Positions 25,493-48,983 of a stretch of DNA of 64,000 bases are shown piece by piece. The position numbers and the translations under genes are program-made. How positions within the stretch are numbered: the first letter of the stretch is position 1; each line of letters begins with the position of its first letter. Where the stretch lies: the NCBI GenBank assembly GCA_900473175.1, contig UCKM01000005.1, forward strand, positions 1 to 64,000, in the 5' to 3' direction. This DNA comes from Hyphomicrobiales bacterium. Lineage in GTDB: Bacteria; Pseudomonadota; Alphaproteobacteria; Rhizobiales; Rhizobiaceae. Below the pieces are notes generated by a model. The model did not search any database and was not told the DNA's origin. It saw only the letters and a list, made by a program, of their open reading frames with translations.

Positions 25493-26230
25493 TTATTGCG
25501 GCAAGCTGAGTTTCGCCATGCGGCCTCCATCAATTGTCCACACCTGTCCAGTTACAAAGGATGCTTCGGAAGAGGCTAACCACGCCACCAAACTCGCCAC
25601 TTCCTCCGGCCTTCCGGTCCGCCCGACGGGGTGAATTTTGCCAATCGTGCGACGAAAGCCTTCCGGATCGGGCATGCCTTCGATGAACTCGATATTCAGA
25701 TCGGTGTCGATCCAGCCGGGCGCAACCGCGTTGCACCGCACTCCTTCGGCACTGTGATCGATAGCGACAGCACGGGTCAGTCCATGAATGCCCGCCTTGG
25801 AAGCGCAATAGGCAGCGTGTCTTGGATTGGAGCCTAAGCCCTCAATCGAACCGACATTGACGATCACCCCGCCCACAGCCCGGAGATGAGGAAGGGCCGT
25901 TTTGATAAGGATAAAAGGAGTCGTCAGATTTACCGTCATAGTCCGCTCCCAGTCCTCAAGGCTCATATCCTCAACGAGCGATTCCTGCATCATGCCTGCA
26001 TTATTTACCAGCACGTCGAGCCTCCCGGCCCGGCTCACGATTGCCTCCACCGCGCATACTGCTGTCGACGGATTGGTGAAATCGACCACAATCCCTTCGA
26101 ATTCGTGATCCTCACCGCGTTGCGCGGTAAATACGCGCGCGCCTTCATCCCGTAGCCTGCGGGCAATAGCTTGCCCAATCCCTGTACGGCCACCTGTCAC
26201 CAAGACGACTTTTCCTTCAAATCGCGTCAT
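25493..26230 (-). CDS. Short-chain dehydrogenase/reductase
   Basis: A 245-residue classical SDR with the cofactor motif TGGRTGIG at residues 12-19, the NNAG motif in VLVNNAGMM, the catalytic Ser in NVGSIEGLG and the YxxxK pair in YCASKAG. It would oxidise a hydroxyl or reduce a carbonyl with NAD(P). Its start overlaps the stop of another SDR gene by 4 bases. Both follow the ProW-ProV-like transporter genes on the same strand, so they may act on the imported compound or a breakdown product. The substrate is unknown. Confidence 0.9.
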
Positions 26231-26961
26231 CCTACCGCCTTTCCTCCGTTAACCTCGACGAGAGAACCGCACATGTAACGCGCTGCGTCTGAAGCGAGGA
26301 ACAAAACGACATCGGCGATATCTTCGGGCTCTGCAATTCGCCCCAGCGGAACTGTCTTGCCCAGTTCCGCCACCGCTGTGTTCGGATCGAAGCCACGTTT
26401 AAGAAAGCCTGTGCGCAGCATCGGGGTGTTCACCTCGTTGGGACATACGGCGTTTACGCGGATGTTCTGATGCGCGTGATCCATGCCCATGCACTGGGTC
26501 AACGATGCGATGGCCGCCTTGGTCATACAGTAAATGGCATGATCGGGGCCGGGTCGAATTCCCCAGCATGACGCAACATTCACGATCGCGCCTCCACCTT
26601 CTGCAGCCAAGATCGGAATTGCAGCACGGCAGATACGGAACGGAGCTTCAACATTCACGCCCAGCGAAAGTGACCAGTCAGCGTCCGTGGTATTTGTCAC
26701 TGTTCCCCGTGTGATAACGCCAGCATTATTGACGACGATGTCAAGCCCCCTGAGGGCCTGAAAGGCAGCCTTAGGCAGGCTGTCCGCATAGCCAGTGTCC
26801 AACAGGTCGCCTGGGAGATGCGCCTCAGCTTCAATTCCAGCGACATCCCGGTCGGCCACCGCGACGCGTGCGCCTTCAGACCGTAGCTGCCGTACAATCG
26901 CCGCGCCTATTCCCCCGGCGGCACCAGTCACAAGGACGGCTTTCCCGCGAAAAATGTCCAT
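26227..26961 (-). CDS. Short-chain dehydrogenase/reductase
   Basis: A 244-residue classical SDR with TGAAGGIG at residues 12-19, VVNNAGVI, Ser in NVASCWGIR and YCMTK as the YxxxK motif. The ATG at 26961 follows GGAAAGGAAAATTATGG, a good ribosome binding site, and removes a 46-residue extension that has no SDR features. It is coupled (ATGA) to the second SDR. A 251-base gap separates it from the ATPase gene upstream, so the SDR pair may have its own promoter. Confidence 0.9.
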
Positions 26962-27212
26962 AATTTTCCTTTCCGAATTTCTATCTGGTTTTGCTGAGTT
27001 TCCCGGCGTCCTCGCAAGTGGTGCATCGACGACCGATACGTCCCGGCTTTGTTGTAGACATCGAAAGGAGCTATCGAGACTCCAAGGCGATAACGGCAAC
27101 GTGAAAAAAGAGCTGGCAATGATAGCATCATCGCCAGCGAAAGTGCTTGTCGGGAAAGGAGGAAACCCAACAAGTCGGGAACATCCAAACGAAGTTGGAT
27201 TAAGCGGCAGGG

Positions 27213-28238
27213 TTACCCAGTGACAGCATCCAGTAGATCGTGCCGAGAAATGACGCCAACTGGACGGTCACCATCAACAACCGTGATCACGCCGTCATGC
27301 TCTTTCGCGATCTGGAGGAGTTTCGACAATTTATCTGTCGCAAGCACCGTGGGGCCAGTAAGTGCCGAGGCCTGGGCTCCGGCGATAGGCTTCATCACTC
27401 TCCCTGCAGAAACCAATTCCAATCTAGAGATGCCTTTGACAAAGTCGGCGACGTAACCATCGATCGGCTCCGTCACGATTTGCTCGGCTGTTCCAACCTG
27501 TACGAACCGACCGTCCTTCATGATCGCGATGTGAGTTCCCAAACGGATCGCTTCATCCAGGTCATGCGTGATGAACACAGTTGTCTTCTTCAATACTTTC
27601 GACAACTCCAAAAACTGCTCTTGTAGCTGCCGCCGTATCAAAGGATCGAGCGCCGAGAATGGCTCATCCATGAGGAGTATTTCGGGATCTGCAGCCATTG
27701 CGCGCGCCAATCCGACCCGCTGCTTCATGCCACCGGAAAGCTCGTCCGGATAACGGTCGCCCCAGCCGTCCAAGCTGACAAGCCGGAGCTTTTCCAACGC
27801 AACATCGTGGCGACTCCCCTTCGCCATACCGCGCAGTTCCAAGCTTAAGGCGACGTTGTCGATGACAGTCCGGTGTGGCAGCAGCGCCATGTTCTGGAAA
27901 ACCATGCCCACGCTTTGAGAGCGCATTTGGCGGAGTTGAGTTCCGTTCAGGGAATTAACGTCCTGATTGGCCACGCGTATCGAGCCAGCGGTCGGTTCAA
28001 CAAGACGGTTAATATGACGAACGAGCGTGGATTTCCCGGATCCGGAAAGCCCCATGATACAGAAAATCTCGCCTTTGCCGACCGTAAACGAGACGTCCGC
28101 GACGCCTACGACGCAGCCATATTGTTCCAAGATCTCTGTTTTGCTCAGGCCGCGCTCGTTAACAACCTTATGGGCTTCTTTTGACTTATCACCGAAAATT
28201 TTCCAAACATTTCGGCATTCAATGACCGCGTCAGTCAT
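27213..28238 (-). CDS. proV: Betaine/proline ABC transporter ATPase (ProV/ChoV type)
   Basis: A 341-residue ATPase. It begins with the ProV-specific segment NVWKIFGDKSKEAH and continues with Walker A GLSGSGKST near residue 70, Q-loop VFQNMALLPHRTV, signature LSGGMKQRVGLARAMA, Walker B ILLMDEPFSALDPL and the H-loop THD. A C-terminal CBS-like region (KPIAGAQAS, VVDGDRPVGVISRHDLLDAV) matches the ionic-strength sensing domain of osmoregulated relatives. GGAGATTGCT precedes the ATG at 28238. The permease gene lies directly upstream. The binding protein is 6 kb away on the other strand. Confidence 0.93.
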   Translation of the reverse strand: MTDAVIECRNVWKIFGDKSKEAHKVVNERGLSKTEILEQYGCVVGVADVSFTVGKGEIFCIMGLSGSGKSTLVRHINRLVEPTAGSIRVANQDVNSLNGTQLRQMRSQSVGMVFQNMALLPHRTVIDNVALSLELRGMAKGSRHDVALEKLRLVSLDGWGDRYPDELSGGMKQRVGLARAMAADPEILLMDEPFSALDPLIRRQLQEQFLELSKVLKKTTVFITHDLDEAIRLGTHIAIMKDGRFVQVGTAEQIVTEPIDGYVADFVKGISRLELVSAGRVMKPIAGAQASALTGPTVLATDKLSKLLQIAKEHDGVITVVDGDRPVGVISRHDLLDAVTG

Positions 28239-28248
28239 AGCAATCTCC

Positions 28249-29211
28249 TCAATTGTCGATGGCAGGTGATGCCAGCTGATGCGCTGAATCGGTCTGGGAA
28301 GATTTGGTGAACGAACGAATGAGCCCAACGGGACCTCTATTTAGCCATTCGCCCTTCTTTTGGGGTGTCGCGAGCGCTTGCGTCAAGCGGTCCAGCACGA
28401 TCGCGAGAGCAACGATCCCGAGGCCGCCGACAGTCGCAATGCCGATGTCGAGCCTGCCAATGCCGCGCAACACCATCTGCCCAAGTCCACCGACTGCGAT
28501 CATCGAAGCAATCACGACCATCGAAAGCGACATCATCAGCGTCTGATTGACGCCCGCCATGATAGTCGGCAGGGCCAAAGGCAATTGCGCTTTCCAGAGC
28601 AGTTGAGACTCTGTAGCACCGAAAGCACGCATCGCTTCAACGACATCTTCCGGGACCTGCTTCATTCCCAGATATGTCAATCTGACAACGGGTGCGACCG
28701 CAAATATCACAGTGACGATGACGCCGGGGACATTACCGATCCCGAACAGCATGACAACAGGCACCAGATAAACGAAGGCCGGGATCGTCTGCATGCCATC
28801 GAGCAAAGGCCGAAGGATCGCGTATAGGGTTTCCGACCGCGACGCCCATATACCAAGCGGGATACCGATCACGAGGGAAAATATCAGTGAGGTAAGCACG
28901 ATGGCCAAGGTGAGCATCGTTTCCGGCCACACGCCGATAAAACCCACGAAGAGCAAAGTAGCGGCAAGTCCGATGGCCAGCCTGATCCCGGCTATCTGCC
29001 ACGCAATGAGCGCGACGACAATTATTACCACCATCGGAGGCACCGCGCCCAGCGCAGCCATAAAAGACTGCAACATCGAATCTATCGGAGCCTTCACCGC
29101 TTGGAAGAAGGGGCGATAATTATCCACAACCCATCGCAACCCGACCGACATCCAACTGTCGAGCGGAAGCTTTGCGCAGGCGAATGGATCGAGAATCCTA
29201 CATTCTGGCAT
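28249..29211 (-). CDS. proW: Betaine/proline ABC transporter permease (ProW type)
   Basis: A 320-residue membrane protein with a long cytoplasmic N-terminus (residues 1-50) and about seven hydrophobic segments. The permease coupling loop is EAMRAFGATESQLLWKAQLPLALP near residue 190. The pattern VVDNYRPFFQAVKAPIDSML matches ProW-like proteins. It is the first gene of a minus-strand transporter-SDR series and is divergent from the epimerase gene at 29370, with 158 bases between them for shared control. Confidence 0.93.
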   Translation of the reverse strand: MPECRILDPFACAKLPLDSWMSVGLRWVVDNYRPFFQAVKAPIDSMLQSFMAALGAVPPMVVIIVVALIAWQIAGIRLAIGLAATLLFVGFIGVWPETMLTLAIVLTSLIFSLVIGIPLGIWASRSETLYAILRPLLDGMQTIPAFVYLVPVVMLFGIGNVPGVIVTVIFAVAPVVRLTYLGMKQVPEDVVEAMRAFGATESQLLWKAQLPLALPTIMAGVNQTLMMSLSMVVIASMIAVGGLGQMVLRGIGRLDIGIATVGGLGIVALAIVLDRLTQALATPQKKGEWLNRGPVGLIRSFTKSSQTDSAHQLASPAIDN

Positions 29212-29282
29212 CTGTTCCCTCTTTTTCTAGGTCTTATTAGTTTTCTTAAATAACACATTGTGAATCGAGACCTTGGCGCAAA

Positions 29283-29369: not shown

Positions 29370-30473
29370 ATGAAGCTGACGGCAATTAACGTTTACAATG
29401 TAGACCTTCCCGTTGTTGGGAAGTACAGAATGTCCATGGGTTCCGTTTCATTGCTGCAGAGCACTGTGGTCGAACTCATTACCGATGAAGGCGTAACCGG
29501 GTTTGGCGAAACCTGCCCCGTCGGTCCAATCTACCAGCCCCAGCATGCACTCGGCGCGCGCGCCGCACTTGAAGAAATGGCGCCAAGCCTAATTGGCCTC
29601 GACCCCAGAAATTTTGGACAATTGAACCGTGCCATGGAGTCTGCACTCAACGGCAGCAGGTACGCCAAGGCCGCAATCGACATCGCCGCTTGGGATATCT
29701 GCGGGAAGAGTTATGGACGACGAATCTGCGACCTGTTGGGCGGAGCGACTGGAGACACCATAGCGACATACTACTCCATCCCGGTCGCATCTCCGGAGGA
29801 AGCGGCCAGAGAAGCGCGTGAACGCCAACGCGAAGGTCATGATCGGCTTCAGATTAAGATTGGCGGGCGCGATGTTGAAGAAGACATCGAGACGCTCCAC
29901 CGTGTAAACGAGGCCATCAAGCCTGGCATGCGCCTCGCCGCTGATGCCAATCGAGGCCTGACAAGCAGGGATGCACTCTTCTTGTCACAAAGGTGCCGGG
30001 ACATTTCCTTTGTTCTGGAACAACCGTGCAATACGATGGAGGAGATCGCCGCTGTCCGCTACCAGCTTTGTCACCCCGTATACATGGACGAACTGGCCGA
30101 AGACGTGAACAGTGTGTTGCGCGCTATCTCTACGGGGCTCGTCGATGGTTTCGGTATGAAACTCACCCGCGTGGGCGGCATCTCGGCGTTGCGGACGGTT
30201 CGGGATATCTGCGACGCGCGCAGGCTGCCGCATACATGTGATGATTCTTGGGGCGGAGATATTATCGCGGCAGCGTGCGTGCACGTCGGTGCGACCGTAG
30301 ATACGTCCAGATTCGAGGGTTCCTGGATCGCCGCGCCCTACATCGACGGGCACTATGATGAAGAGAACCCTGTCCGCTTAGAAGGCGGCCGCATAAAAGT
30401 TCCGACTGGACCGGGCCTTGGTGTTGTTCCTGACATGGCGAAGTTAGGCTCACCAATCGCGTCTTTTGGCTGA
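29370..30473 (+). CDS. hpbD: 4-Hydroxyproline betaine 2-epimerase (enolase superfamily)
   Basis: A 367-residue enolase-superfamily protein. The two acid/base lysines expected for racemases/epimerases are K163 (LQIKIGG) and K264 (GMKLTRVGG). Metal ligands are D192 (ADANRG), E217 (LEQPCN) and D240 (VYMDE). Sequence patterns GETCPVGP, PHTCDDSWGGDIIAAAC and YDEENP are those I associate with HpbD of Pelagibaca bermudensis, which epimerises trans-4-hydroxy-L-proline betaine (and proline betaine) at C2. GGGAGA precedes the ATG at 29370. Its 3' end overlaps a convergent LysR gene by 24 bases. The specific substrate is inferred from homology and from the downstream enzymes in this island. Confidence 0.87.
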   Translation: MKLTAINVYNVDLPVVGKYRMSMGSVSLLQSTVVELITDEGVTGFGETCPVGPIYQPQHALGARAALEEMAPSLIGLDPRNFGQLNRAMESALNGSRYAKAAIDIAAWDICGKSYGRRICDLLGGATGDTIATYYSIPVASPEEAAREARERQREGHDRLQIKIGGRDVEEDIETLHRVNEAIKPGMRLAADANRGLTSRDALFLSQRCRDISFVLEQPCNTMEEIAAVRYQLCHPVYMDELAEDVNSVLRAISTGLVDGFGMKLTRVGGISALRTVRDICDARRLPHTCDDSWGGDIIAAACVHVGATVDTSRFEGSWIAAPYIDGHYDEENPVRLEGGRIKVPTGPGLGVVPDMAKLGSPIASFG

Positions 30474-31400
30474 CGCCAAGTTGTCGGGTGCTATCTTGCG
30501 CTCTTGTTCAGCCATCTCAAGTAGCCAATCCTTTAAAACAACCGCGGCGGTCGATAGCTCGCGGTTGTTATTACTCGTCAGATAGTAAGCGCCCGGTGCT
30601 GGAAGCATCAAACTTGTCAGCCTCACAAGCTTCCCCTCGTCGATCAAATGCCGGACCAACCGATCCCATCCCACAGCAACGCCTTGGTCCGCCATTGCGG
30701 CCTGCAAGGCGACACTGAATTTGCCGAATCGACGGCCGCCGTTCAAAGCGTGGGGAATGTTGGCGCGCAACAAGACCTCCTCCCAACCCGCCCAGTCCGG
30801 ATCAACCCAGTCGACATGCAGATGAGGGAGTTCCGCCAATTCCGCCGCGGTCACACCTTCGTGTGCCGCCGCAAATCCCAGTCCGCAGACAGGATAAATC
30901 GTATCGTCGAACAGCAACTCGGCCGTCTCGTCGAGCCAGGCACCGAACCCGTACCGAATCCGCAGTTCTACCTCGGCCCGGCGGTAATCCTTTGCGTTGT
31001 CGGAAATCAAATGGTCGACCGCGATGTCCGGATATCGCCGCCAGAAATCAGGCATTCTTGGGATCAGCCACATGGTCGCGAAAGCGTCAGTGCAGGCGAT
31101 CGTCACATTACGCGCCCTATCACCGCGTTTGATGGAGCGAACTACATCTGAGGCTTTAGAGAAACTGCTGGCTAAAACATTGTACAGCTCTTCTCCGGCT
31201 TGGGTGAGCGCGACTCCCTTTCCGTTGCGCACAAAGAGCGGTACGCCAACTTCTTCTTCTATCGCCTTCACCTGTCGGCTGATCGCGCCCGGCGTCACGT
31301 TCAATTCGCCGGCCGCCAGCTTAAAACTAAGGTGCCGCGCCGATGCCTCGAAGACGGCGAGCGTTGTAAGCGACGGAAGGTTGTAAAACCTGCGAACCAT
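30450..31400 (-). CDS. LysR-family regulator, GcvA-like
   Basis: A 316-residue LysR protein with an N-terminal winged helix (LTTLAVFEASARHLSFKLAAGELNVTPGAISRQVK) and a substrate-binding domain. It is flanked by the epimerase gene on one side and, divergently, the MttB-family gene on the other, the classical place for a LysR activator of those genes. AAACTAGC motifs occur in both nearby divergent regions. The inducer may be a betaine or an intermediate. The ATG at 31400 is used; one at 31412 is also possible. Confidence 0.9.
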   Translation of the reverse strand: MVRRFYNLPSLTTLAVFEASARHLSFKLAAGELNVTPGAISRQVKAIEEEVGVPLFVRNGKGVALTQAGEELYNVLASSFSKASDVVRSIKRGDRARNVTIACTDAFATMWLIPRMPDFWRRYPDIAVDHLISDNAKDYRRAEVELRIRYGFGAWLDETAELLFDDTIYPVCGLGFAAAHEGVTAAELAELPHLHVDWVDPDWAGWEEVLLRANIPHALNGGRRFGKFSVALQAAMADQGVAVGWDRLVRHLIDEGKLVRLTSLMLPAPGAYYLTSNNNRELSTAAVVLKDWLLEMAEQERKIAPDNLASAKRRDW

Positions 31401-31560: not shown

Positions 31561-33111
31561 ATGAACATGCAATCCAATGCTGCCAGAAGAGGCGGTCGAG
31601 ATGCCCGCCGAGTGCTTCGCACCACTCCAAAGTTCCAGATGCTCCCGACCTTGAAGCGTGGGCTTCCCGACATGGAACCCATGAACGCCGAGCAGATCGA
31701 GCGCATTCACAACGCGTCGATGGACATTCTCGAGGAAGTGGGGGTCGTCTTCCGCGACCCGATTGCGCTGGAGGATTGGAAGCGCGCGGGGGCAGATGTC
31801 CGTGGCGAGCGTGTTCACCTAGACCGCGCGCTCATTATGGACTTGATCAAAACAATCCCGCCTGACATCAAGTATTACGCACGGAACCCTGATAATAATG
31901 TTGAATTGGGAGGCAAGAACTCAATCTTCGTCCCGATGACTGGCGCGCCATATATGCGCGACTTGGACGATGTCCGCCGGGGTCCGACCATCGCCGATCT
32001 CGGCACCTTCCACAAGCTCGCCCACATGATGCCGGCCCTACACTCTTCTGCGCATCACATCGTGGAGCCGATGGATATTGTCGTTGCCCATCGTCACCTC
32101 CACATCACCTATTCGTCCATGAAGCATTCAGACAAGATGTTTATGGGCATGACAACCTCGGCCAAAAACGCCGAGGACGTCCTCGATATGTGCGCTATCC
32201 TTTTCGGCACGCAGTTCCTTGAAGACCATGCGGTCGCCACGGGTAACTGCAACGGCAACTCGCCCCTCGTTTGGGACCAAACGATGCTTGGAGCTATGCG
32301 CGCGTTCTGCCGCCGGAACCAGCCCGTCTTGTGCTCGCCGTTTGTCTTGGGCGGCGCGAACACGCCCGCGTCGACAGCCCCGGCGGTTGCACAGCTGAAC
32401 GCCGAGGCGCTTTCGGCGCTCGCCTATACCCAGGTGATACGCAAAGGGTGCCCCGCCATCTACGGTCACTTTCTGTCGACAGTGTCGATGCAATCTGGAG
32501 CCCCGATGGCCGGAACGCCTGAAATTTCTCTGATGAACTTTATGATTGGCCAGATGGCCCGGCACTACAACGTCCCGTGGCGTACTTCGAATCTTTTGGG
32601 AGGTGCGAAAGTTTTCGACGCGCAGTCCGGCTACGAAAGCGCAATGACTATGATGGCCGTCCTCATGTCAGGGGCGAACTACATCTGGCATTCGGCCGGC
32701 TGGAACGAGGCGGGCATGCATTGCTCCATCGCCAAATTTCTGGTCGATTCGGAAGTGTGCGCCATGGGCTACCGCATGGCAGAGGGGATCAAGTGGGATG
32801 ACTTCGACGAAGCCCTCGCCGCTGTCCGCGACGTCGGACCAGGCGGTCATTACCTCGGACATCCCCACACACAGGCAAATTTCGAGAAGGCGTTCTTCAT
32901 TCCGAAGCTGTTTGACAACAATTCCGTCGAGCAGTGGGTCGTCGACGGGTCAAAGGACGTCAAGCAGCGCGCGCTTGAGCAGGCGCGCTATCTTCTGTCG
33001 GAATATCAGGAACCCAAACTCGACGTTTCGGTCGACGAGGAGCTTCGCGCATACATGGACCGCCGGAGCCGCGAAATCCCGACGGTCGACGCGCTGAACG
33101 AGGACTACTGA
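31561..33111 (+). CDS. MttB-family (trimethylamine methyltransferase-like) protein without pyrrolysine
   Basis: A 516-residue protein of the MttB superfamily, recognisable from LPDMEPMNAEQIERIHNAS, DILEEVGVVFRDP, ANTPASTAPAVAQLNAEALS and the closing ARYLLSEYQEPKLDV. Archaeal MttB uses pyrrolysine. This reading frame has no internal TAG, so it belongs with non-Pyl members such as MtgB (glycine betaine) and MtpB (proline betaine), which move a methyl group to a corrinoid protein. No corrinoid protein or methylcorrinoid:acceptor methyltransferase gene lies in this window. A GlxA-type regulator follows after 26 bases. Likely substrate is a quaternary amine, but acceptor and direction are unknown. 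Confidence 0.85.
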   Translation: MNMQSNAARRGGRDARRVLRTTPKFQMLPTLKRGLPDMEPMNAEQIERIHNASMDILEEVGVVFRDPIALEDWKRAGADVRGERVHLDRALIMDLIKTIPPDIKYYARNPDNNVELGGKNSIFVPMTGAPYMRDLDDVRRGPTIADLGTFHKLAHMMPALHSSAHHIVEPMDIVVAHRHLHITYSSMKHSDKMFMGMTTSAKNAEDVLDMCAILFGTQFLEDHAVATGNCNGNSPLVWDQTMLGAMRAFCRRNQPVLCSPFVLGGANTPASTAPAVAQLNAEALSALAYTQVIRKGCPAIYGHFLSTVSMQSGAPMAGTPEISLMNFMIGQMARHYNVPWRTSNLLGGAKVFDAQSGYESAMTMMAVLMSGANYIWHSAGWNEAGMHCSIAKFLVDSEVCAMGYRMAEGIKWDDFDEALAAVRDVGPGGHYLGHPHTQANFEKAFFIPKLFDNNSVEQWVVDGSKDVKQRALEQARYLLSEYQEPKLDVSVDEELRAYMDRRSREIPTVDALNEDY

Positions 33112-35470: not shown

Positions 35471-35477
35471 CGGTTTT

Positions 35478-40785: not shown

Positions 40786-41919
40786 CTATTGGGGGATGAC
40801 GAGTACGAGCTTTCCGCTGATGCTCTTGGATAGGAAATCTTGCTGAGCTTGGACGATGTCCTTAAGCGGATAGGTTTTTCCAACGACTGGCCGGATTTCG
40901 CCGCGTTCGATGTAAGTTATGAGGTTCTCGAACACGACGTCTTCCTGAAACGTGCACCCCAGGAAAGTGAGGTCCTTAAGGTAAAGCGTGCGTACATCTA
41001 GTTCCACGATGGGTCCCGCGATGGCACCGGCCACGGCGTACCGTCCGCCCTTCTTCAGAACTTCCAACAGTTCGGGGAAATCGGGACCCGCAGCGACGTC
41101 AATAACAACATCGACCGTTTCCCTGCCTTGTCCTTTAAGAATGCTCTCACCCCGAGGATGCACTCGGTCAGCACCCAAAGCGACCAATTGGTCGGCTTTA
41201 GTTTTGGCCGCGACCGCAGTAACCACGGCCCCTCTCCGCTTCGCAAGTTGAATTGCGGCGGAACCAACGCCGCCGGATGCACCAGTGATGATCACATGTT
41301 CCCCCGCGACAACGTCGGCACGATGCAGGAGATTTTCGGCGGTGGAATAGGCGCACGGAACCGATGCAAGTTCGATATCACTCCATTCGCACTCGACCTT
41401 AAACGTCTCTCGCGCAGGAGCCTTTGCGTATTGGGCGAACGCGCCGTCGCACTCCGACCCAAACGTCCAGCACTCCATAGGTCGATAATCGACATAGGAG
41501 CGGAGCATGTTTCGAACGATAACCCGTTCACCAATTCGCCCGGCATCCACACCATCTCCGACGGCGACTATGCGGCCACAGCAGTCACCGCCTTGAATGC
41601 GGGGAAACGCCATGGGCACCCCCGACCAACTGGCGTCTGCATCTTGGATTTCGAATCCTTGTGCCCCTCCGGCTTCGGTACCGCTTTTCACCGCCTTCGA
41701 ATACCAGCCAATGCGAGTGTTTATGTCCGTGTTGTTGATACCTGCGGCGGCTACTCGGATCAAAACTTCTCCAGGGGCGGGATTCGGAACCGCGATGTCT
41801 TCTCTGTACTGAAGGTTTTCGAATCCCCCATGCCCGATTAGGACCACACCAGTCATCAATCCAGGAATGTCGGCCTGATGTTTTGGAGATGATTTTGCAA
41901 TTCCAACGCTCATGGCCAT
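40786..41919 (-). CDS. MDR superfamily (quinone reductase/alcohol dehydrogenase-like) oxidoreductase
   Basis: A 377-residue medium-chain dehydrogenase/reductase with a GroES-like N-terminal domain (PAPGEVLIRVAAAGINNTDI, IQGGDCCGRIVAVG) and a Rossmann domain with ITGASGGVGSAAIQLAK near residue 215. The catalytic zinc ligands of alcohol dehydrogenases are not all evident: the site has GINNTD in place of the usual Cys and GGDCCG in place of HE. A quinone-reductase-like mechanism is therefore more likely. It precedes the second enolase-superfamily gene and probably forms a two-gene operon with it. ATG 41856, 21 codons on, is another possible start. Confidence 0.85.
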   Translation of the reverse strand: MAMSVGIAKSSPKHQADIPGLMTGVVLIGHGGFENLQYREDIAVPNPAPGEVLIRVAAAGINNTDINTRIGWYSKAVKSGTEAGGAQGFEIQDADASWSGVPMAFPRIQGGDCCGRIVAVGDGVDAGRIGERVIVRNMLRSYVDYRPMECWTFGSECDGAFAQYAKAPARETFKVECEWSDIELASVPCAYSTAENLLHRADVVAGEHVIITGASGGVGSAAIQLAKRRGAVVTAVAAKTKADQLVALGADRVHPRGESILKGQGRETVDVVIDVAAGPDFPELLEVLKKGGRYAVAGAIAGPIVELDVRTLYLKDLTFLGCTFQEDVVFENLITYIERGEIRPVVGKTYPLKDIVQAQQDFLSKSISGKLVLVIPQ

Positions 41920-42047: not shown

Positions 42048-42707
42048 TCAAACTTCCCGACTTTCCCTTTGCGGCGCATACCTGTGCCGTGCAAAGAACC
42101 GATCCAGCTCCTTCTCTTCAGGTTGCCGTCCCGTAAAAATCTCGACGTAGTCAACCATTCGTGTCATTCGCACAGAGAGGGGTTCCTGGGTTTGCATGGA
42201 GATGTAGCCGATTTGGACGAGGTACAGAGTTCGAGCTCGCACATCAGCGGAAATCTCCTTCATCCCGAACCGCACGAACATGCGGGTCAGAGCATCAAGC
42301 CTGATCTGATCCGCCCTTTGAACTTCGGCTAAAATGTCAGCCGACTGGAGCGCCCAGCTTCTTATGGCGAACTCGAATGGAGAATCAAAAAGCGTTCGGT
42401 CCAGCCAACAATCGAAAACGTTGAGCGTCGCCTCCGCTAGAGACTCGGCATAAGCCTCAGATTGCTTGACGATGTTGCCCGTGTTCTTGTTCCGCCAGAG
42501 CGCGATCAGAGCACCGAGAAGCTCCTCCCGATCCTTGAAAAACCAATAAAAACTCGTCCGCGAGAGACTGAGCTTCTTCGCCAAGGGTAGAATTTTGACG
42601 GAGTCCACGCCCGACTCGAGCAAAGCCTCATAGGCCGCCTCCAGCCATCCTTCGTGTGATCCGCGCCAGCCGCTGTCGCTCAAGGCCTGTTCCATAGGTG
42701 ATCTCAT
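42048..42707 (-). CDS. TetR-family repressor
   Basis: A 219-residue protein with a TetR helix-turn-helix at residues 20-65 (EALLESGVDSVKILPLAKKLSLSRTSFYWFFKDREEL) and a helical ligand domain. It is divergent from the N-demethylase gene, and the 132-base gap holds two ATGTACAT palindromes, very likely its operators. Its ligand would be a substrate or product of that flavoenzyme. ATG at 42695 is a close alternative start. Confidence 0.92.
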   Translation of the reverse strand: MRSPMEQALSDSGWRGSHEGWLEAAYEALLESGVDSVKILPLAKKLSLSRTSFYWFFKDREELLGALIALWRNKNTGNIVKQSEAYAESLAEATLNVFDCWLDRTLFDSPFEFAIRSWALQSADILAEVQRADQIRLDALTRMFVRFGMKEISADVRARTLYLVQIGYISMQTQEPLSVRMTRMVDYVEIFTGRQPEEKELDRFFARHRYAPQRESREV

Positions 42708-42839: not shown

Positions 42840-44876
42840 ATGTCAAACGACCCGTTGCTGCAGCCATACAAATTGAAGCATCTGACCCTGCGAAACCGAA
42901 TTATCGTCACCTCGCACGAGCCAGCCTATCCCGAGGACGGTATGCCTAAGGGGCGCTACCGTTCCTACACCGTAGAACGCGCCAGAGGCGGCATCGCGCT
43001 GACGATGACGGCGGGGTCCGCAGCGGTTTCGAAGGACAGCCCGCCAGTCTTCAACAATCTACTCGCCTACAAGGACGAGATCGTTCCGTGGATCAAAGAG
43101 TTGACGGAAGCCGTGCATGAGGAAGGCGCGGCTATCATGATTCAGCTGACGCATCTTGGCCGGCGCACCCGGTGGGACAAGGGCGACTGGCTTCCCGTCG
43201 TCGCTCCCTCCCACCATCGTGAGGCCGCGCACCGTGCCTTTCCCAAGAAGCTCGAAGACTGGGACATCGAGCGCATCATCAAAGAGTTTGCGGACGCCGC
43301 CGAGCGGATGAAGGCGGGGGGCATGGATGGCGTCGAACTCGAAGCCTATGGCCATCTGATCGACCAGTTTACGTCACCTCTCACGAACGAACTGGACGGA
43401 CCCTATGGCGGCTCGCTCGACAACCGTCTTCGCTTCTGTTTTGACGTATTCCGAGCGATGCGCGAACGAGTAGGCCCTGACTTCATCCTTGGAGTGCGGT
43501 ACACCGCCGACGAATGTCTTCCCGGGGGCACGGGCAAGGCCGAGGGCCTAGAGATTTCCCGTCGCCTCAAGGAGAGCGGTCTCATCGACTATCTGAACGT
43601 TATTCGCGGCCATATCGACACCGATGCCGGCCTGACGGACGTCATCCCTATCCAGGGCATGGCCAGTGCCCCGCACCTGGATTTCGCCGGAGAGATACGG
43701 TCCGCGACCAATTTCCCGACTTTCCATGCCGCCAAAATTCAGGACGTCGCCACAGCACGTCATGCCATAGCGTCCGGTAAGGTCGACATGATAGGCATGA
43801 CCCGCGCTCACATGACTGATCCTCACATCGTTCGGAAAATTATAGAAAAGCGAGAGGACGACATCCGCCCCTGCGTGGGTGCCAATTACTGTCTGGACAG
43901 AATTTACCAGGGAGGCCTCGCGTTCTGCATCCACAACGCCGCGACCGGACGCGAGGAAACGATGCCGCACGTCGTCGAAAAGGCGTCAGAGCGGAAGAAG
44001 ATTGTCATCGTCGGGGCTGGTCCGGCAGGTCTTGAAGCAGCGCGTGTCGCGGGCGAGCGCGGTCACGATGTCGTGGTGTTCGAAGCCGCGAGCAATCCTG
44101 GCGGACAAATCCGGCTTACGGCCCAGAGCCCGCGCCGCAAGGAGATGATCAGCATCATCGACTGGCGTATGGCCCAGTGCGAAAAGGCAAACGTGAAGAT
44201 CCACTTCAACACCTGGGCTGAAGCCGGGACGATTGAAGCAGAGAACCCCGATGTCGTCATCATCGCGACAGGTGGTCTCCCCCACACCGAGGTCCTGTCG
44301 AAGGGCAACGCATTGGTGGTATCGTCTTGGGACATCATATCCGGCGATGCGAAGCCAGGCACTAATGTGTTGGTATTCGACGACGCCGGCGATCATGCGG
44401 GATTGCAGGCGGCCGAAATCCTAGCGAACGCTGGTGCCAAGGTTGAAGTGATGACCCCAGACCGCTCCTTCGCCCCCGAAGTTATGGCGATGAACCTGGT
44501 TCCCTACATGCGTTCGCTCCAGAAGCTCGATGTCACTTTCACTGTGACTTACAGGCTAGAGTTCGTCGAGAAGAACGGCAACCAACTTGTGGCGCATGTG
44601 GGCAGCGACTATGGCGGCATTTCCAAGCAGCAGGTCGTAGACCAAGTCGTCATTAATCACGGGACGATCCCGCTCGACGATCTCTACTTCGAGCTCAAGC
44701 CGAACTCGACCAACCTGGGCGAGGTTTCCTACGATGATCTCATCGCGGGCAAGCCTCAAGCCGCCGTCCGGAATAACCAAGGTCGGTTTCAGCTCTTCCG
44801 GATCGGCGACGCCGTAGCCGCTCGGAATACGCACGCAGCGATTTACGATGCCCTGCGACTGGTGAAAGATATCTGA
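42840..44876 (+). CDS. Old-Yellow-Enzyme/TMADH-type N-demethylase (N-methylproline or stachydrine type)
   Basis: A 678-residue multi-domain enzyme: an FMN barrel at 1-335, an iron-sulfur segment at 345-363, and FAD/NAD-binding domains at 385-670 (VIVGAGPAGLEAARVAG). Length and order match trimethylamine dehydrogenase, DgcA (dimethylglycine demethylase) and the StcD/HpbA-type demethylases. C345, C351 and C363 are present, but position 348, the second cluster ligand in TMADH, is Ala (CVGANYC). Its likely job is removing the last methyl group from an N-methyl(hydroxy)proline. TetR operators lie in its promoter. The cupin gene follows after 36 bases. Confidence 0.88.
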   Translation: MSNDPLLQPYKLKHLTLRNRIIVTSHEPAYPEDGMPKGRYRSYTVERARGGIALTMTAGSAAVSKDSPPVFNNLLAYKDEIVPWIKELTEAVHEEGAAIMIQLTHLGRRTRWDKGDWLPVVAPSHHREAAHRAFPKKLEDWDIERIIKEFADAAERMKAGGMDGVELEAYGHLIDQFTSPLTNELDGPYGGSLDNRLRFCFDVFRAMRERVGPDFILGVRYTADECLPGGTGKAEGLEISRRLKESGLIDYLNVIRGHIDTDAGLTDVIPIQGMASAPHLDFAGEIRSATNFPTFHAAKIQDVATARHAIASGKVDMIGMTRAHMTDPHIVRKIIEKREDDIRPCVGANYCLDRIYQGGLAFCIHNAATGREETMPHVVEKASERKKIVIVGAGPAGLEAARVAGERGHDVVVFEAASNPGGQIRLTAQSPRRKEMISIIDWRMAQCEKANVKIHFNTWAEAGTIEAENPDVVIIATGGLPHTEVLSKGNALVVSSWDIISGDAKPGTNVLVFDDAGDHAGLQAAEILANAGAKVEVMTPDRSFAPEVMAMNLVPYMRSLQKLDVTFTVTYRLEFVEKNGNQLVAHVGSDYGGISKQQVVDQVVINHGTIPLDDLYFELKPNSTNLGEVSYDDLIAGKPQAAVRNNQGRFQLFRIGDAVAARNTHAAIYDALRLVKDI

Positions 44877-44912: not shown

Positions 44913-45467
44913 ATGGTAAGAACCGAGGCTCTTCAACTCTTTCTCGACGCCACGTTCGTGGCGTTCGATCGATTTGCAAAGGATTTGCGCTCTCGCGATT
45001 CAATCATGCGCATTTTCGCTTTACTCGAGGTTGCCGGAGCGAGAGGAACGAAATCCGGCAAACGCCTCCCGGTTTGCGTCCGACACCTCGATGAAGCGCT
45101 GGCCTTAGAGACAGAGCACACGATACTGAAGTCCGTCATCGCGCGGTTCCAGGCAATTGAACCGTGGCTCGATTGGAATTGGCGCTCCACGTATGATAAT
45201 TCCGCGAGCGAGAACTTTCTTATGGGTCATGCCAACGGGATGGTCGTAGGCCCCGGGGGCGTCGAAGAGCGACAGGACCTTTGGCTCGGTGTCAGCCTAC
45301 TGGCACCCCATGTGCGCTATCCCAATCACAGCCATCCTCCCGAAGAGACCTATCTCGTCCTTTCCGAGGGCGAGTTTATGCAAGAAGAGACTTGGTTCTC
45401 CCCTGGCATCGGGGGGTCCTTCTTTAATCCCCCTGGCATAAAGCACGCGATGCGATCAGGCGATTAG
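44913..45467 (+). CDS. DMSP-lyase-family cupin (DddQ/DddL-like), cut short by an in-frame TAG
   Basis: A 184-residue protein with a C-terminal cupin domain of the DMSP lyase family: metal-site residues H139, H141, E145 and H178, with Y147, lie in YPNHSHPPEETY and PPGIKHAM. DddQ and DddL release dimethyl sulfide from DMSP. Reading past the TAG at 45465 gives PLLALWALL and ends at a TGA at 45513-45515. That segment matches the expected last strand of the family, so a nonsense change has probably removed about 16 residues. Whether the short form folds is unknown. It follows the N-demethylase by 36 bases, so an osmolyte role is likely. DMSP itself is inference. Confidence 0.75.
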   Translation: MVRTEALQLFLDATFVAFDRFAKDLRSRDSIMRIFALLEVAGARGTKSGKRLPVCVRHLDEALALETEHTILKSVIARFQAIEPWLDWNWRSTYDNSASENFLMGHANGMVVGPGGVEERQDLWLGVSLLAPHVRYPNHSHPPEETYLVLSEGEFMQEETWFSPGIGGSFFNPPGIKHAMRSGD

Positions 45468-45600: not shown

Positions 45601-46683
45601 CTAGCGTTCAATGACGAGATCGCTCAACGGTCTGGAACAGCAGGGCAGGAAGAAACCAGCGTCGATCTCTCTTTGCCTGATCCCTCCGTCGGATTTCATA
45701 TCGACGGCTCCGCTCACGAGCTTGGACTTGCAGGTCCCGCAGATACCACTCGCACATGACGACGGAATCCTGACGCCAGATTTTTTGGCACAAGAAAGAA
45801 CGGTCTGATCAGCACGGACTTCGATAGACTTTCCCTGTTTCAAAAATTGCACGCTGAACGATTTCGCTTCAACGGCCTCGGAAACCGGCGCAGCGGCGTC
45901 TTCAATAACACCGGCGTCGAAACTTTCTTCGTGATAGTTGCAATCGGAAACACCCAATTCAACGCTGATCTTTCTCGCGGCCGCCATGAACGGCGCTGGT
46001 CCGCAGCACATGACGACGCGGTCAGCGATATCCGGCGCAGCCAGCGAAAGGAATTCCCTGGATATCCGGCCTGAAATGCCCGGCCAACAACGCTCGGTTG
46101 CGATGTCTTCGGGAAGCAGCAGCAGCCTGAACCCTTTGACGCGTCGCGCGAGGTTTGCAGCCTCCTCGCGGAAGATAAGGTCTTTCGGACTTCTACCCGC
46201 GTGCAGGAATATGACATCGGCCGACTCGGCCGTATCAGCAAGTTCCCGCGCCATGGACATGAGCGGCGTGATCCCGGAGCCACCCGACAGGAAAAGGAAC
46301 TTCCTGGCCGCAGGCCGGACGAAACGGCCGAGTGGCCCTAATGCCCGGACAGTCGTGTTCGGGATCAAATTGTCGTGCAGCCAGTTCGACACCTTTCCAC
46401 CAGGAACACGCTTCACGGTAATAGTGATGGCGTTTTTGCGGAGCGGAGAGGACGAGACGCTGTAGCAGCGCGCGTCGTCCTCATTGTCAAGACCTAGCTC
46501 GAACTTGAAATATTGTCCGGCACTGAACTCGAATTGTTTCCGGTCGGGCGACACGAACGTGAAGCTTTTCACGTCATGCGTCTCATCATGTACGTCGATG
46601 CAAAGGAGCCTGTCGTCCGTTTCCGGATCCCAAAACCCACCGACTGCTTGGCTAATCGCTTTGGGGAGGAGTTCAGTAGCCAT
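45601..46683 (-). CDS. Rieske oxygenase reductase (FAD/NAD plus 2Fe-2S), GbcB-like
   Basis: A 360-residue electron-transfer protein. FAD-binding RCYSVSSSP lies near residue 93. A nucleotide-binding domain follows (SGGSGITPLMSM, CCGPAPFM). The C-terminus is a plant-type ferredoxin with CASGICGTCKSKL and a fourth Cys in LPCCSRP. GbcB and CntB-type reductases of betaine and carnitine oxygenases have this order. The ATG at 46683 overlaps the end of the Rieske gene by 11 bases, so the pair is made together. It passes NAD(P)H electrons to the oxygenase. Confidence 0.92.
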   Translation of the reverse strand: MATELLPKAISQAVGGFWDPETDDRLLCIDVHDETHDVKSFTFVSPDRKQFEFSAGQYFKFELGLDNEDDARCYSVSSSPLRKNAITITVKRVPGGKVSNWLHDNLIPNTTVRALGPLGRFVRPAARKFLFLSGGSGITPLMSMARELADTAESADVIFLHAGRSPKDLIFREEAANLARRVKGFRLLLLPEDIATERCWPGISGRISREFLSLAAPDIADRVVMCCGPAPFMAAARKISVELGVSDCNYHEESFDAGVIEDAAAPVSEAVEAKSFSVQFLKQGKSIEVRADQTVLSCAKKSGVRIPSSCASGICGTCKSKLVSGAVDMKSDGGIRQREIDAGFFLPCCSRPLSDLVIER

Positions 46684-47926
46684 GGGCGCGCATCCGTTCA
46701 ATGTACCAGCTCGCGAAATCGTCGAGAGCGCCCTCGCTAAACCTGGAATACACGCCAGGCTCATAGGCGGGGTCCTGGACGCCGGCTTGGGCGCGAGCAA
46801 CGAGCTCGGCGTCCTGATTGGTCGTCTCCGTCCATACGTGAGTAAGTTTCGCGAGATCGTAATCGACGCCCTCTTTCGCGTCCTTGTGAACAAGCCATTT
46901 CGTCCGGATCAGGGTCGTGTCGGCAGAAATCGGGATTGCGATAGAAATCACGGCGTGGTCGCCCATGAAGTGACACCAGCTGTTATGCCCCCAAAGATGC
47001 ATGTCGCCGAGGTCCTTTCGGGTCATCGTCCCAAGAAGTTTCGACGAGGCGGCGGTCGAGTCCTCAGTCTGGGACTCGCCAGCCCCAGCGATAATCAGAC
47101 GCTGGGTGCGGAAATTGGTTTCGCAATTTCTCACCCGCTCAATCGTCGATGAAGGAAATCCGTTCGCCTCCCAGTCTTTCGTGCGCTCGCTGTACATAGC
47201 GAAATGCGCTTCCGCCTCCTCCCGGTCCTCTGGGCTAAGGCTGTCGGGATCGTATCCGAAATCAAGGTCGACGAACGAGACGCAAAGCTCCGGATGGTTG
47301 GCCGAGCAGTGATAGCACTCTCGGTTGTTCTCCATCGTGAGCTTCCAATTCCCTTTCTCGACGACATCCAACTGGTGTGCGACCTTGGCGTTGCGGACGT
47401 CATAGGGCGCGAGTCGCGCAACCATAACGTCTTCCAGCTGGTTAATATCCCGAGGAGGATTGTCGGAAAGACAGACATAGACCAGCCCGCCGATCAACTT
47501 GAAGTTCACCGCCTTGAGGCTCCGGCAGCTCTTGTCGAAGTCCTTTCCCATGTGCGGGGCATAGCTAAGCTCACCCGAAAGCTCGTACGTCCATTGGTGG
47601 TAGGGGCAGACGAGCTTGGAAACGACGGCCGAGCCGGCGTCCAGCAAACGCGCGCCGCGATGACGGCAGACGTTGCGGACCACCCGGATTTCGTTCTCGT
47701 CGTCCCTAAGCAGGATCAGGCTTGCCGATCCTATGTCGATGACAACCGCGTCGCCTGCTTCCGGGACATCGCACTCAAGGCCCACATGTATCCAGTGCTT
47801 CGAAAAGAACACGTCCAAGTCCGCTTGGAAGACGTCCTCGCGGGTGTAAAGTCCAGCGGGAAGAGAGTGTCCATCGATACGAGCGTCGAGCAAGGAGGAG
47901 ATCGATGAAGGGAGCGTGTTGAGCAT
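46673..47926 (-). CDS. Rieske-type quaternary-amine demethylase, oxygenase component
   Basis: A 417-residue ring-hydroxylating-type oxygenase alpha subunit. The Rieske cluster ligands are C87, H89, C107 and H110 (CRHRG, CPYHQW). The mononuclear iron site has H206 and H211 in NNRECYHCSANH, with E203 as the acidic bridge, as in GbcA and stachydrine demethylase Stc2. These enzymes remove one methyl from a betaine as formaldehyde. With HpbD and the OYE-type enzyme nearby, hydroxyproline or proline betaine is the best substrate guess, with glycine betaine as the alternative. It is divergent from a LysR gene. Confidence 0.92.
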   Translation of the reverse strand: MLNTLPSSISSLLDARIDGHSLPAGLYTREDVFQADLDVFFSKHWIHVGLECDVPEAGDAVVIDIGSASLILLRDDENEIRVVRNVCRHRGARLLDAGSAVVSKLVCPYHQWTYELSGELSYAPHMGKDFDKSCRSLKAVNFKLIGGLVYVCLSDNPPRDINQLEDVMVARLAPYDVRNAKVAHQLDVVEKGNWKLTMENNRECYHCSANHPELCVSFVDLDFGYDPDSLSPEDREEAEAHFAMYSERTKDWEANGFPSSTIERVRNCETNFRTQRLIIAGAGESQTEDSTAASSKLLGTMTRKDLGDMHLWGHNSWCHFMGDHAVISIAIPISADTTLIRTKWLVHKDAKEGVDYDLAKLTHVWTETTNQDAELVARAQAGVQDPAYEPGVYSRFSEGALDDFASWYIERMRAHGY

Positions 47927-47984
47927 AATGTTTCCTTATGGATCAGTTGCCTTTAGAATCGCACTAATGGGCGATATTTCAACT

Positions 47985-47996
47985 GCACAAATGTGC
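47985..47996. promoter_or_regulatory. Palindrome in the Rieske/LysR divergent region
   Basis: GCACAAATGTGC has 5-bp arms around AA. It lies 59 bases upstream of the Rieske gene start and 73 bases upstream of the LysR start, suited to a LysR dimer site that controls both. It is a single short palindrome, so chance cannot be excluded. Confidence 0.4.
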
Positions 47997-48068
47997 GCCC
48001 TTGGCATTACTATAAGTAATGGGAAACTTTCCAACGGGCCTCTTTTCGGCAAGAACAGGAGTGACGTT

Positions 48069-48983
48069 TTGAAAAGTTTGAGGAGACAGCTGCCGCCGCT
48101 GACGGCGCTTACCGTATTCGAGGCCGCGTCGCGGTTGTCGAGCTTCACGAAGGCCGCCGAGGAACTCGGCGTTACCCAAGCTGCAGTCAGTCGACAGATT
48201 CACCTCCTAGAGAGCGACTTTGGCTTCCCACTTTTTACGCGCCTGCATCGAAAGGTAACCTTGACCGACAAAGGCAAGGCGCTTTCCGCGGCCACCAGCG
48301 ATGCCTTTAACCTGCTTGCGGAAACAGTAGCCGACCTTCGCAAGGACGCTTCCAGCGACGAGCTGACAATCTCTGCGACAGTCGCATTCTCGCATTTCTG
48401 GTTGATGCCTAGAATTTCAGAATTCTCGCGGCAGTATCCGGACATCAATCTCCGTATCGTCACTCAGGACAATATGCCGAACCTCGAACGTGGCGAGGTG
48501 GACGTCGCTATCAGATTTGGCAACGGCATGTGGCCGGACGGTCATGCTGAAGCCCTATTTGAAGACGAGGTCTTCCCGGTTTGCAGCCCAGAGTACGCCG
48601 GTACGGATGGGTCCATCAAAAGCCCAGCGGACTTGGTTTCGTACTCCCTCATCTCTAACGAGACTGACGACCCAATGTGGACAGGTTGGAACGAGTGGCT
48701 CTCGTCATTTTCCATCGTGGTTCCAAAGAAAACGATGGGACTGCGTTGCAGCTTTTACACCGAAGCGATCTATGCCGCGCTCAACGGTCAGGGGATTGCG
48801 CTGGGCTGGACACATCTTGTGGAAGATCTGTTAAAGCAGGGACGACTGGTGCGCCTGACTGACGCGGCCATCAAACCCAGAGGTGCTTATTTTGTCGTGG
48901 TTCCCACAAGACAACGGAATAGGGTTGCCGCGAGCCATTTCGTCCAATGGCTGCAGATAGCATCGCAGGAACCGGGCCCGTGA
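48069..48983 (+). CDS. LysR-family regulator, GcvA-like
   Basis: A 304-residue LysR protein (PPLTALTVFEAASRLSSFTKAAEELGVTQAAVSRQI near residues 9-45). I chose the TTG at 48069 because AGGAG lies 7 bases upstream and the length then fits the family. The longer ATG frame at 47916 would overlap the divergent Rieske gene's first codons and add 51 unmatched residues. Position argues that it controls the Rieske demethylase and reductase genes. Confidence 0.88.
   Translation: MKSLRRQLPPLTALTVFEAASRLSSFTKAAEELGVTQAAVSRQIHLLESDFGFPLFTRLHRKVTLTDKGKALSAATSDAFNLLAETVADLRKDASSDELTISATVAFSHFWLMPRISEFSRQYPDINLRIVTQDNMPNLERGEVDVAIRFGNGMWPDGHAEALFEDEVFPVCSPEYAGTDGSIKSPADLVSYSLISNETDDPMWTGWNEWLSSFSIVVPKKTMGLRCSFYTEAIYAALNGQGIALGWTHLVEDLLKQGRLVRLTDAAIKPRGAYFVVVPTRQRNRVAASHFVQWLQIASQEPGP

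Follow-up and report, generated by a model that had tools for sequence, protein, structure and literature searches.

The 64,000-nucleotide stretch of DNA investigated in this study, hereafter called the window, covers positions 1 to 64,000 of contig UCKM01000005.1 of the Hyphomicrobiales bacterium assembly GCA_900473175.1 (contig C19 of a genome totalling 4.88 Mb) and raises the question of what the gene island at positions 25493-48983 is for and which of its enzymes act together. A preliminary description had read this region as a complete catabolic pathway for hydroxyproline and proline betaine in a rhizobium-like host, and the genes it named are all open frames at or near the places given for them and belong to the families assigned, as found in a check of the open reading frames and with family models. 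The rhizobium-like character of the host is equally supported, with Phyllobacterium as its probable genus. Unmentioned within the same bounds were two short-chain dehydrogenases (SDRs, 25493-26961), an MDR-superfamily gene, a PF16867 cupin and four regulators. The island is real and coherent, and since the same genes recur together in other genomes it is not the product of chance. It probably constitutes a laterally assembled system for the catabolism of proline-type betaines. Gene families, the conserved site residues of the epimerase, gene linkage and the corrinoid machinery in the genome are directly observed, and it is from these that we infer every substrate, the sequence of the reactions and the functions of the SDRs, the cupin, the second enolase-type enzyme (ENO2) and its MDR partner.

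In the mechanism that we propose, a betaine would be imported by the ABC transporter ProXWV and inverted at C2 by the epimerase ENO1, whose substrate would be 4-hydroxyproline betaine and probably proline betaine too. The first N-methyl group would be removed by MttB and passed via a corrinoid protein to tetrahydrofolate, or alternatively be removed by a Rieske oxygenase with its reductase, and the second by an OYE/FAD enzyme, which the cupin would assist in relatives. The products of the DAO, DHDPS and ALDH genes would then lead from cis-4-hydroxy-D-proline to 2-oxoglutarate. The ring hydroxyl is the predicted target of the two SDRs, which would jointly invert C4 through an NAD+-dependent oxidation by one and an NADPH-dependent reduction by the other, with ENO2 and the MDR protein forming a side branch. 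The HpbD cluster of Pelagibaca and Paracoccus, with its 4-hydroxyproline betaine 2-epimerase / proline betaine racemase, was reportedly described by Zhao in 2013 and Kumar in 2014; the core of this route is known, and the island is a further form of it, assembled from modules that are found elsewhere. Among these, the SDR pair, the OYE-linked cupin and the ENO2-MDR unit are three conserved parts with clear candidate substrates. Proline-type betaines are released by plants, and the island most likely lets the bacterium take up and use them. According to the available part of PMC12239276, stachydrine of Medicago seeds raises the competitiveness of Sinorhizobium meliloti in root colonisation and its nodulation rate, and StcD is involved in its catabolism.

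The epimerase and its commonest neighbours

The genes on which this reading is centred are the following:

29370..30473, forward strand: ENO1, HpbD-family (hydroxy)proline-betaine 2-epimerase (57% identity to PDB 4E8G, site residues, tree)
31561..33111, forward strand: MttB, non-pyrrolysine quaternary-amine:corrinoid methyltransferase (PF06253, 709 bits)
25493..26230, reverse strand: SDR1, short-chain dehydrogenase with NADP-type signature
26227..26961, reverse strand: SDR2, short-chain dehydrogenase with NAD-type signature (VADRD)

The presence of an HpbD-type epimerase, as claimed in the preliminary description, was borne out. Judged by its sequence, ENO1 is a convincing member of the HpbD family, and it agrees with 4E8G at 13 of the 14 site positions that were compared across 86 sequences of the ENO1 set. 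Both lysines, the three acidic metal ligands, the Asp pair and one Trp are the same as in 4E8G and invariant in all 86, and the second Trp position is kept in 80 of them including the ENO1 of the window. We take the Trp and Asp-Asp positions to surround the quaternary nitrogen of the betaine. The catalytic lysines and acidic ligands alone do not distinguish ENO1 from ENO2, since the latter has them too. In a quick tree, 4E8G, 2PMQ and ENO1 fall within a set of 87 rows that excludes 4MGG, 3EEZ and ENO2, and the protein of the Paracoccus denitrificans locus is 4E8G itself, as is evident from zero branch lengths in the trees. Hydroxyproline betaine 2-epimerase and proline betaine racemase belong to the enolase superfamily, as stated in the available part of PMC5144071.

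The neighbourhood of this epimerase was analysed in the best 80 of 256 ENO1 relatives, in a single scan with fixed identity cut-offs. Its commonest partners are SDR1 and SDR2 (35 loci each), DAO (34), MttB (33), ALDH and DHDPS (32 each), and rarer ones are Rieske (13), OYE (10), ENO2 (6) and the cupin (1). Among the 47 loci with at least 8 kb on both flanks, MttB and each SDR are present in 28, DAO and DHDPS in 26, ALDH in 25, Rieske in 10, OYE in 6, ENO2 in 5 and the cupin in 1. MttB, the SDR pair and the full trio of DHDPS, ALDH and DAO occur jointly in 23 of the 80. The preliminary description had regarded MttB as an extra module, a view that did not hold, since MttB is among the commonest neighbours of the epimerase and accompanies it more often than the Rieske oxygenase does.

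PF06253 is matched over positions 1-500 of 500 by the MttB of the window, an open frame of 516 residues without an internal amber codon, whose scores against PDB entries are 494 bits for 4YYC and 350 bits for 9YCE, a glycine betaine methyltransferase. It is one of four MttB proteins in the genome, of which two are encoded on contig C12 and one on C23. Its low identity to the other copies (38% and 43% to those on C12, 35% to that on C23) makes it likely that its substrate differs from theirs. Besides its two MttB genes, contig C12 (L146, 1-20000) encodes a corrinoid protein (PF02310, PF02607), a pterin protein of PF00809, a homocysteine methyltransferase of PF02574, a DUF1638 protein and a RACo-type activase, together with a protein that combines DAO and GCV_T domains in the manner of dimethylglycine/sarcosine dehydrogenases. 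The genome thereby encodes corrinoid partners such as MttB needs, which are candidate partners for the protein of the window. This set resembles MtgBCDE, which demethylates glycine betaine in aerobic bacteria, with S. meliloti among those that have the genes together; multiple MttB-type genes may serve other compounds, as the available part of PMC12478193 has it. If the link to MttB is true, aerobic rhizobia and roseobacters would need vitamin B12 to use hydroxyproline betaine, and the finding on glycine betaine (PMC12478193) would extend to a second osmolyte.

The SDR pair was surveyed in 88 loci, with both proteins required at an identity of at least 60%. Both are present in 36 loci, and in all 36 they are adjacent on one strand. 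In this fold the second strand characteristically ends in Gln-Arg in the NADP type and in Asp in the NAD type. SDR1 carries Gln-Arg at this cofactor position in 36 of 36 cases and SDR2 carries Asp in 35, with one gap; for each protein 35 of the 36 sequences retain the active-site Tyr and Lys, and SDR1 and SDR2 are 38% identical. The SDRs are as common partners of the epimerase as MttB and bear opposite cofactor signatures, which fits a pair that would oxidise and then re-reduce the ring hydroxyl, thereby inverting C4.

The DHDPS-ALDH-DAO trio

The last steps of the proposed pathway would be catalysed by three consecutive gene products:

35701..36606, forward strand: DHDPS, putative deaminase (PF00701; 90% identity to a Rhizobium etli protein whose gene is close to the start of a betaine-ABC/PF05544 operon)
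36599..38116, forward strand: ALDH, putative 2-oxoglutarate semialdehyde dehydrogenase (best NCBIfam model PuuC, 536 bits, under the cut-off of 850)
38113..39459, forward strand: DAO-family flavin oxidase, putative cis-4-hydroxy-D-proline oxidase (PF01266)

In R. etli these proteins have counterparts in an operon of the composition GntR-DHDPS-ALDH-DAO-betaine ABC-PF05544, where the identity amounts to 90% for DHDPS, 86% for ALDH and 66% for DAO. Seven plasmid loci of the trio, picked by hand from the plasmid matches listed, all contain GntR and a betaine ABC transporter, and six contain a PF05544 protein annotated as 4-hydroxyproline epimerase, with the seventh stopping at the end of its record. 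In Phyllobacterium zundukense and Cereibacter sphaeroides the trio is accompanied by an enolase-type epimerase, with no annotated PF05544 protein in the stretch. In a survey of 151 genomes of the same family, with E thresholds set per protein, DHDPS was detected at E 1e-100 in 15 (61-100% identity). The closest relatives of DAO within its own genome are 28% and 27% identical, and its best model is the pipecolate oxidase AmaA. Family and neighbourhood together make a role of the trio in hydroxyproline breakdown likely. Of the complete route to 2-oxoglutarate claimed in the preliminary description, the presence of DHDPS, ALDH and oxidase families stood; the complete route is one that we infer, since the trio is not orthologous to the hyp-region proteins of S. 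meliloti.

Several observations weigh against our reading of the island. The fourteenth site position of ENO1 is Ala where 4E8G has Gln (36 Ala, 34 Gln, 14 Glu and 2 others among the 86 sequences), and together with the proteins of Sinorhizobium fredii, P. zundukense and Rhizobium rhizogenes ENO1 forms a clade of four sequences of its own (100/100) outside the group of 4E8G and 2PMQ; the careful ENO1 tree carries a long-branch warning. The 80 epimerase loci are mutually related and their counts are not independent events. As many as 35 of them are devoid of MttB, the SDR pair, the full trio and Rieske alike, and although 22 of these have less than 8 kb on one flank, 13 have at least 8 kb on both, and the epimerase therefore also occurs in other settings. 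The P. denitrificans locus of 4E8G (L080) contains neither MttB nor the SDR pair nor the trio. A search for ETF genes gave none in the island and one pair in the genome, whereas the OYE-cupin clusters of Rhizobium carry their own. The cupin of the window is about 17 residues shorter than most of its relatives (184 residues against 200-201 in four of five). In a stretch of the S. meliloti plasmid pSymB (L157), whose location and 56% match with a probe of PF05544 suggest that it is the hyp region, the nearest proteins are 28% identical for DHDPS and 25% for ALDH, and DAO has no match at E 1e-8; compared at the sequence level, the trio is not orthologous to HypO, HypD and HypH. Finally, in all six PF05544 proteins linked to the trio, Cys-Gly takes the place of the Cys-Cys of the S. 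meliloti homologue. An annotated Paracoccus epimerase of PF05544 keeps the second Cys like the S. meliloti homologue. Since the second catalytic Cys is replaced by Gly, the annotation of the linked proteins as 4-hydroxyproline epimerases is doubtful, and its value as firm proof for the role of the trio is weakened.

These last points bear on the alternative that survives best, in which the upper part of the island degrades proline-type betaines and the trio handles another product, such as a ring-opened amine, in a route that does not end in 2-oxoglutarate by known steps. We regard this alternative as unlikely but deserving serious consideration. It draws on the distance from the hyp-region proteins, on the loss of the second Cys in six of six linked PF05544 proteins and on the best models of ALDH and DAO, PuuC and AmaA, both of which score far under their cut-offs. 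However, the linkage of the trio both to HpbD-family epimerases (in 32-34 of the 80 loci) and to PF05544 proteins (in six of the seven picked loci) fits a shared product, cis-4-hydroxy-D-proline, and the title of a paper cited in PMC4364671 speaks of convergent evolution of hydroxyproline enzymes.

The Gly-bearing PF05544 proteins may themselves represent betaine epimerases or dehydratases of a new kind. They are encoded at L098:16601-17599, L125:23292-24290, L158:15605-16603, L160:15599-16597, L161:13638-14636 and L162:9875-10873.

Demethylases, cupin and the ENO2-MDR unit

Returning to the betaine pathway as we propose it, its demethylation genes and the putative side branch occupy the right part of the island:

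42840..44876, forward strand: OYE/FAD N-demethylase of the HpbA/StcD type (PF00724; 73% identity to the annotated HpbA of Paracoccus pantotrophus)
44913..45467, forward strand: cupin of the dimethylsulfoniopropionate (DMSP) lyase family, 184 residues (PF16867, E 1.2e-51; stop at 45465-45467)
45601..46683, reverse strand: GbcB-like reductase of the Rieske oxygenase (NF058606, 313 bits, under the cut-off of 500)
46673..47926, reverse strand: GbcA/Stc2-like Rieske oxygenase (NF058607, 398 bits, under the cut-off of 670)
39657..40769, reverse strand: ENO2, second enolase-superfamily enzyme (best PDB match 2PS2, 655 bits)
40786..41919, reverse strand: MDR-superfamily partner of ENO2 (best PDB match 4J6F, 'putative alcohol dehydrogenase', 293 bits)

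The assignment of the Rieske oxygenase with its reductase and of the OYE enzyme to demethylase families of the betaine/stachydrine type found support. The predicted OYE demethylase has the architecture of an OYE plus an FAD domain as in HpbA and StcD, and it is 87% identical to a pSymB protein that is also followed by a cupin and that is probably StcD. The HpbA-type OYE family, including the annotated HpbA and the protein of the window, displays the motif CVGANYC; the cluster motif of the TMADH type is CxxCxxC, whose middle Cys is missing here. For each protein of the Rieske pair, the P. zundukense counterpart shows 90% identity and those of Rhizobium TAL182 and Ensifer canadensis show 63-78%, and E. 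canadensis contains the succession TetR-OYE-cupin-reductase-Rieske-LysR in the order and on the strands of the window. Against PDB entries 3N0Q, 4QUP and 3VCA the Rieske protein scores near 322 bits in each case, and 3VCA is a stachydrine demethylase according to the available part of PMC4014116.

The route of the preliminary description in its exact form, in which the pathway relies on HpbD, Rieske and OYE while MttB, the SDRs, ENO2 and MDR are unrelated passengers, is improbable. Two Paracoccus loci, L099 and L019, do combine Rieske, OYE and HpbD, and L099 contains neither MttB nor the SDR pair in 41 kb, but in 25 of the 80 loci MttB immediately precedes the epimerase on its strand and in 30 SDR2 immediately follows it, compared to 13 with the Rieske gene. 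More improbable still is a general island for quaternary amines such as glycine betaine and carnitine rather than for proline betaines: while the Rieske pair scores best with the GbcA and GbcB models and a GbdR-like regulator is present, both models remain under their cut-offs, an epimerase of the alpha-carbon would be useless for glycine betaine, and genes of the aerobic glycine betaine type sit on contig C12. That the island is decaying and partly silent is hardly credible, as the shortened cupin and a P. zundukense epimerase broken at the matching place stand against open frames matching their families for the other island genes.

Sarcosine oxidase genes had been described as absent, and for the window this was confirmed in a search with SoxB, SoxA and SoxG of an Agrobacterium plasmid (L159): as the only matches were one of 25% to the DAO gene and a piece of 37 residues inside the OYE gene, we consider them absent from the window.

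Within the pathway favoured here, the cupin would act together with the OYE demethylase. In the family-wide survey OYE was found at E 1e-180 in 95 of the 151 genomes and the cupin at E 1e-20 in 11, so that most OYE genes are without such a cupin. The cupin lies directly downstream of OYE on the same strand in 8 of these 11 genomes, and the remaining three all have 49% identity or less. It carries the metal motif of the PF16867 DMSP lyases, which we take to be HxHxxEExY...H, and its best PDB match, the DMSP lyase 5CU1, reaches only 33 bits. The homologous frame runs on past the stop, and the copy in the window may be impaired; full-length relatives exist, and a fifth one, in L099, has 193 residues and is only 39% identical. 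Since the cupin is set behind an N-demethylase gene, cleavage of DMSP is disfavoured. A pathway with the cupin as true DMSP lyase and MDR as acryloyl-CoA reductase is likewise disfavoured, with the cupin following OYE, MDR accompanying ENO2 and the acryloyl-CoA reductase models scoring far under their cut-offs. Rhizobial genes labelled DMSP lyase may be misread in surveys of the sulfur cycle. In the Rhizobium OYE clusters, a second cupin of the DMSP-lyase family is found behind the ETF genes (L098:4569-5261, L125:11279-11971, L160:3386-4081).

ENO2 shares the catalytic lysines and acidic ligands but has other residues than HpbD at the two Trp positions and in place of the Asp-Asp, and a function as second HpbD was rejected on these grounds. 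Its best PDB match, 2PS2, is presumably a fungal protein. The best family model, NF043002 for cis-3-hydroxyproline dehydratase, gives 348 bits, under its cut-off of 500, and ENO2 was thus not accepted as a proven enzyme of this kind. MDR adjoins or lies near ENO2 in 12 of 14 places examined (exceptions L127 and L129), and where strands were measured, in ten places, both are on the same strand in nine and on opposite strands in L025. In two Mesorhizobium loci (L069, L076) SDR2, SDR1, MDR and ENO2 are consecutive on one strand beside MttB-ENO1. The best model for MDR is a quinone reductase, with C=C reductases among the next and all under cut-off, and elsewhere the protein is annotated as alcohol dehydrogenase. 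ENO2 was detected at E 1e-120 in one of the 151 genomes and at an identity of at least 80% in 16 plasmid records. In Shinella and Sulfitobacter (L102, L104) ENO2-MDR is found beside genes for branched-chain keto acid dehydrogenase, acyl-CoA dehydrogenase and thiolase; participation in the breakdown of branched-chain amino acids was not accepted, as other loci have different neighbours. As a guess, ENO2 and MDR might dehydrate and reduce 3-hydroxyproline betaine.

Taken in full, a more specific version of the betaine pathway can be put forward only tentatively and is rather unlikely to hold in every part: the usual partner of HpbD would be the B12-dependent demethylase and not Rieske, ENO1 acting on C2 and the SDR pair acting on C4 would funnel all four stereoisomers of 4-hydroxyproline betaine into cis-4-hydroxy-D-proline, ENO2-MDR would convert 3-hydroxyproline betaine to proline betaine, and the cupin would serve the demethylation of N-methylproline and not DMSP. 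In literature searches on cupins with demethylases, hydroxyproline betaine, MttB with proline betaine and N-methylproline demethylase, neither the MttB-HpbD-SDR cluster nor the OYE-cupin unit was recognised in titles or beginnings of abstracts among the matches listed.

Transport, regulation and the origin of the modules

The remaining features of the island concern uptake and regulation:

27213..28238, reverse strand: ProV, betaine ABC transporter ATPase (TIGR01186, 338 bits, cut-off 326.6)
28249..29154, reverse strand: ProW, betaine ABC transporter permease (NF008196, 407 bits, under the cut-off of 439)
34499..35470, forward strand: ProX, betaine-binding protein (NF008334, 409 bits, cut-off 215)
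30450..31400, reverse strand: LysR regulator, GcvA-like (adjoins MttB in S. fredii, R. rhizogenes and P. zundukense)
33138..34247, forward strand: AraC regulator, GbdR-like (NF052371, 226 bits, under the cut-off of 480)
42048..42707, reverse strand: TetR regulator beside the OYE-cupin unit (same place in plasmids of Rhizobium TAL182, E. canadensis and S. meliloti, 73-74%)
48063..48983, forward strand: LysR regulator next to the Rieske and reductase genes (counterparts at the corresponding position in E. canadensis, 66%, and in P. zundukense, 90%)

ProV and ProX both exceed the cut-offs of their models, and the claim of betaine uptake is supported. The island is accessory in the genus: of the 20 genomes compared, three pass the threshold for its epimerase, which are that of the window, P. 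zundukense (82%) and one with a relative of only 37%. Compared by sequence, it is a mosaic of modules that can also be found separately on plasmids of rhizobia, and in a megablast search against plasmid records none covered 80% of it. The block ProVW-ENO1-LysR-MttB-AraC-ProX is found in S. fredii (L101) with ENO2-MDR and OYE-cupin within 48 kb, and in P. zundukense with SDR1, the trio and the Rieske pair and with no OYE, cupin or ENO2 in the stretches examined. In Mesorhizobium, which comes closest to the complete set, one locus (L076) combines OYE, cupin, the Rieske pair, MttB, ENO1, ENO2, MDR, both SDRs, ProXWV and DHDPS in 21 kb, and two others on one contig (L069 with L040) add ALDH, DAO and a second epimerase. 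These islands resemble the window in MttB (88-89%), the SDRs (85-86%), ENO2 (83-84%), MDR (73%) and OYE (87%, L076), whereas the epimerase (55-57%), Rieske (40%), ProXWV (49-57%) and DHDPS (62-63%) are more distant; owing to this disparity between parts at 83-89% and the far lower values of epimerase, Rieske and ProXWV, it appears that parts have been exchanged between islands.

The HpbD cluster of Pelagibaca and Paracoccus has in common with the window the epimerase family with its site residues, a betaine ABC transporter and the Rieske pair, and in P. pantotrophus an HpbA-type OYE, a cupin and ENO2-MDR nearby, while the window adds MttB, the SDR pair, the trio and ENO2-MDR. The gene set of its left and middle part recurs as MttB-HpbD-SDR-SDR/DAO-ALDH-DHDPS/ProVWX on plasmid pB of C. 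sphaeroides 2.4.1 (L100) and in roseobacters, the former in different order and lacking Rieske, OYE, cupin and ENO2 within the 29 kb examined. Rhizobium clusters (R. etli L098 and TAL182 L125, with L160 by annotation) consist of OYE-cupin-ETF/formaldehyde genes/DHDPS-ALDH-DAO/betaine ABC/PF05544 and resemble the window in OYE (87-88%), the cupin (58%) and the trio (65-90%), but PF05544 replaces the enolase-type epimerase, ETF and formaldehyde genes are their own, and the stretches examined contain no MttB or SDR pair. The stachydrine system of S. meliloti shares the Rieske family (Stc2, PDB 3VCA) and the pSymB OYE with its cupin, and in contrast to the window no epimerase of the HpbD kind was found in the 24.5 kb around that OYE. 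StcD is the N-methylproline demethylase of S. meliloti, according to the available part of PMC12239276.

Two of these cases have two epimerase genes each. P. zundukense (L124) has the broken gene at the island position (18489-19359) and a full-length one (35302-36405) beside DHDPS-ALDH-DAO, and Mesorhizobium tamadayense has, on the single contig of L040 and L069, two HpbD-family genes, one beside MttB and the other beside DHDPS-ALDH-DAO. Beyond the right end of the island, at 50229-52236 of the window, an LLM-type flavin monooxygenase-like gene is followed by an FMN-reductase-like gene and adjoins a LysR-like gene, with families judged by eye from the translation.

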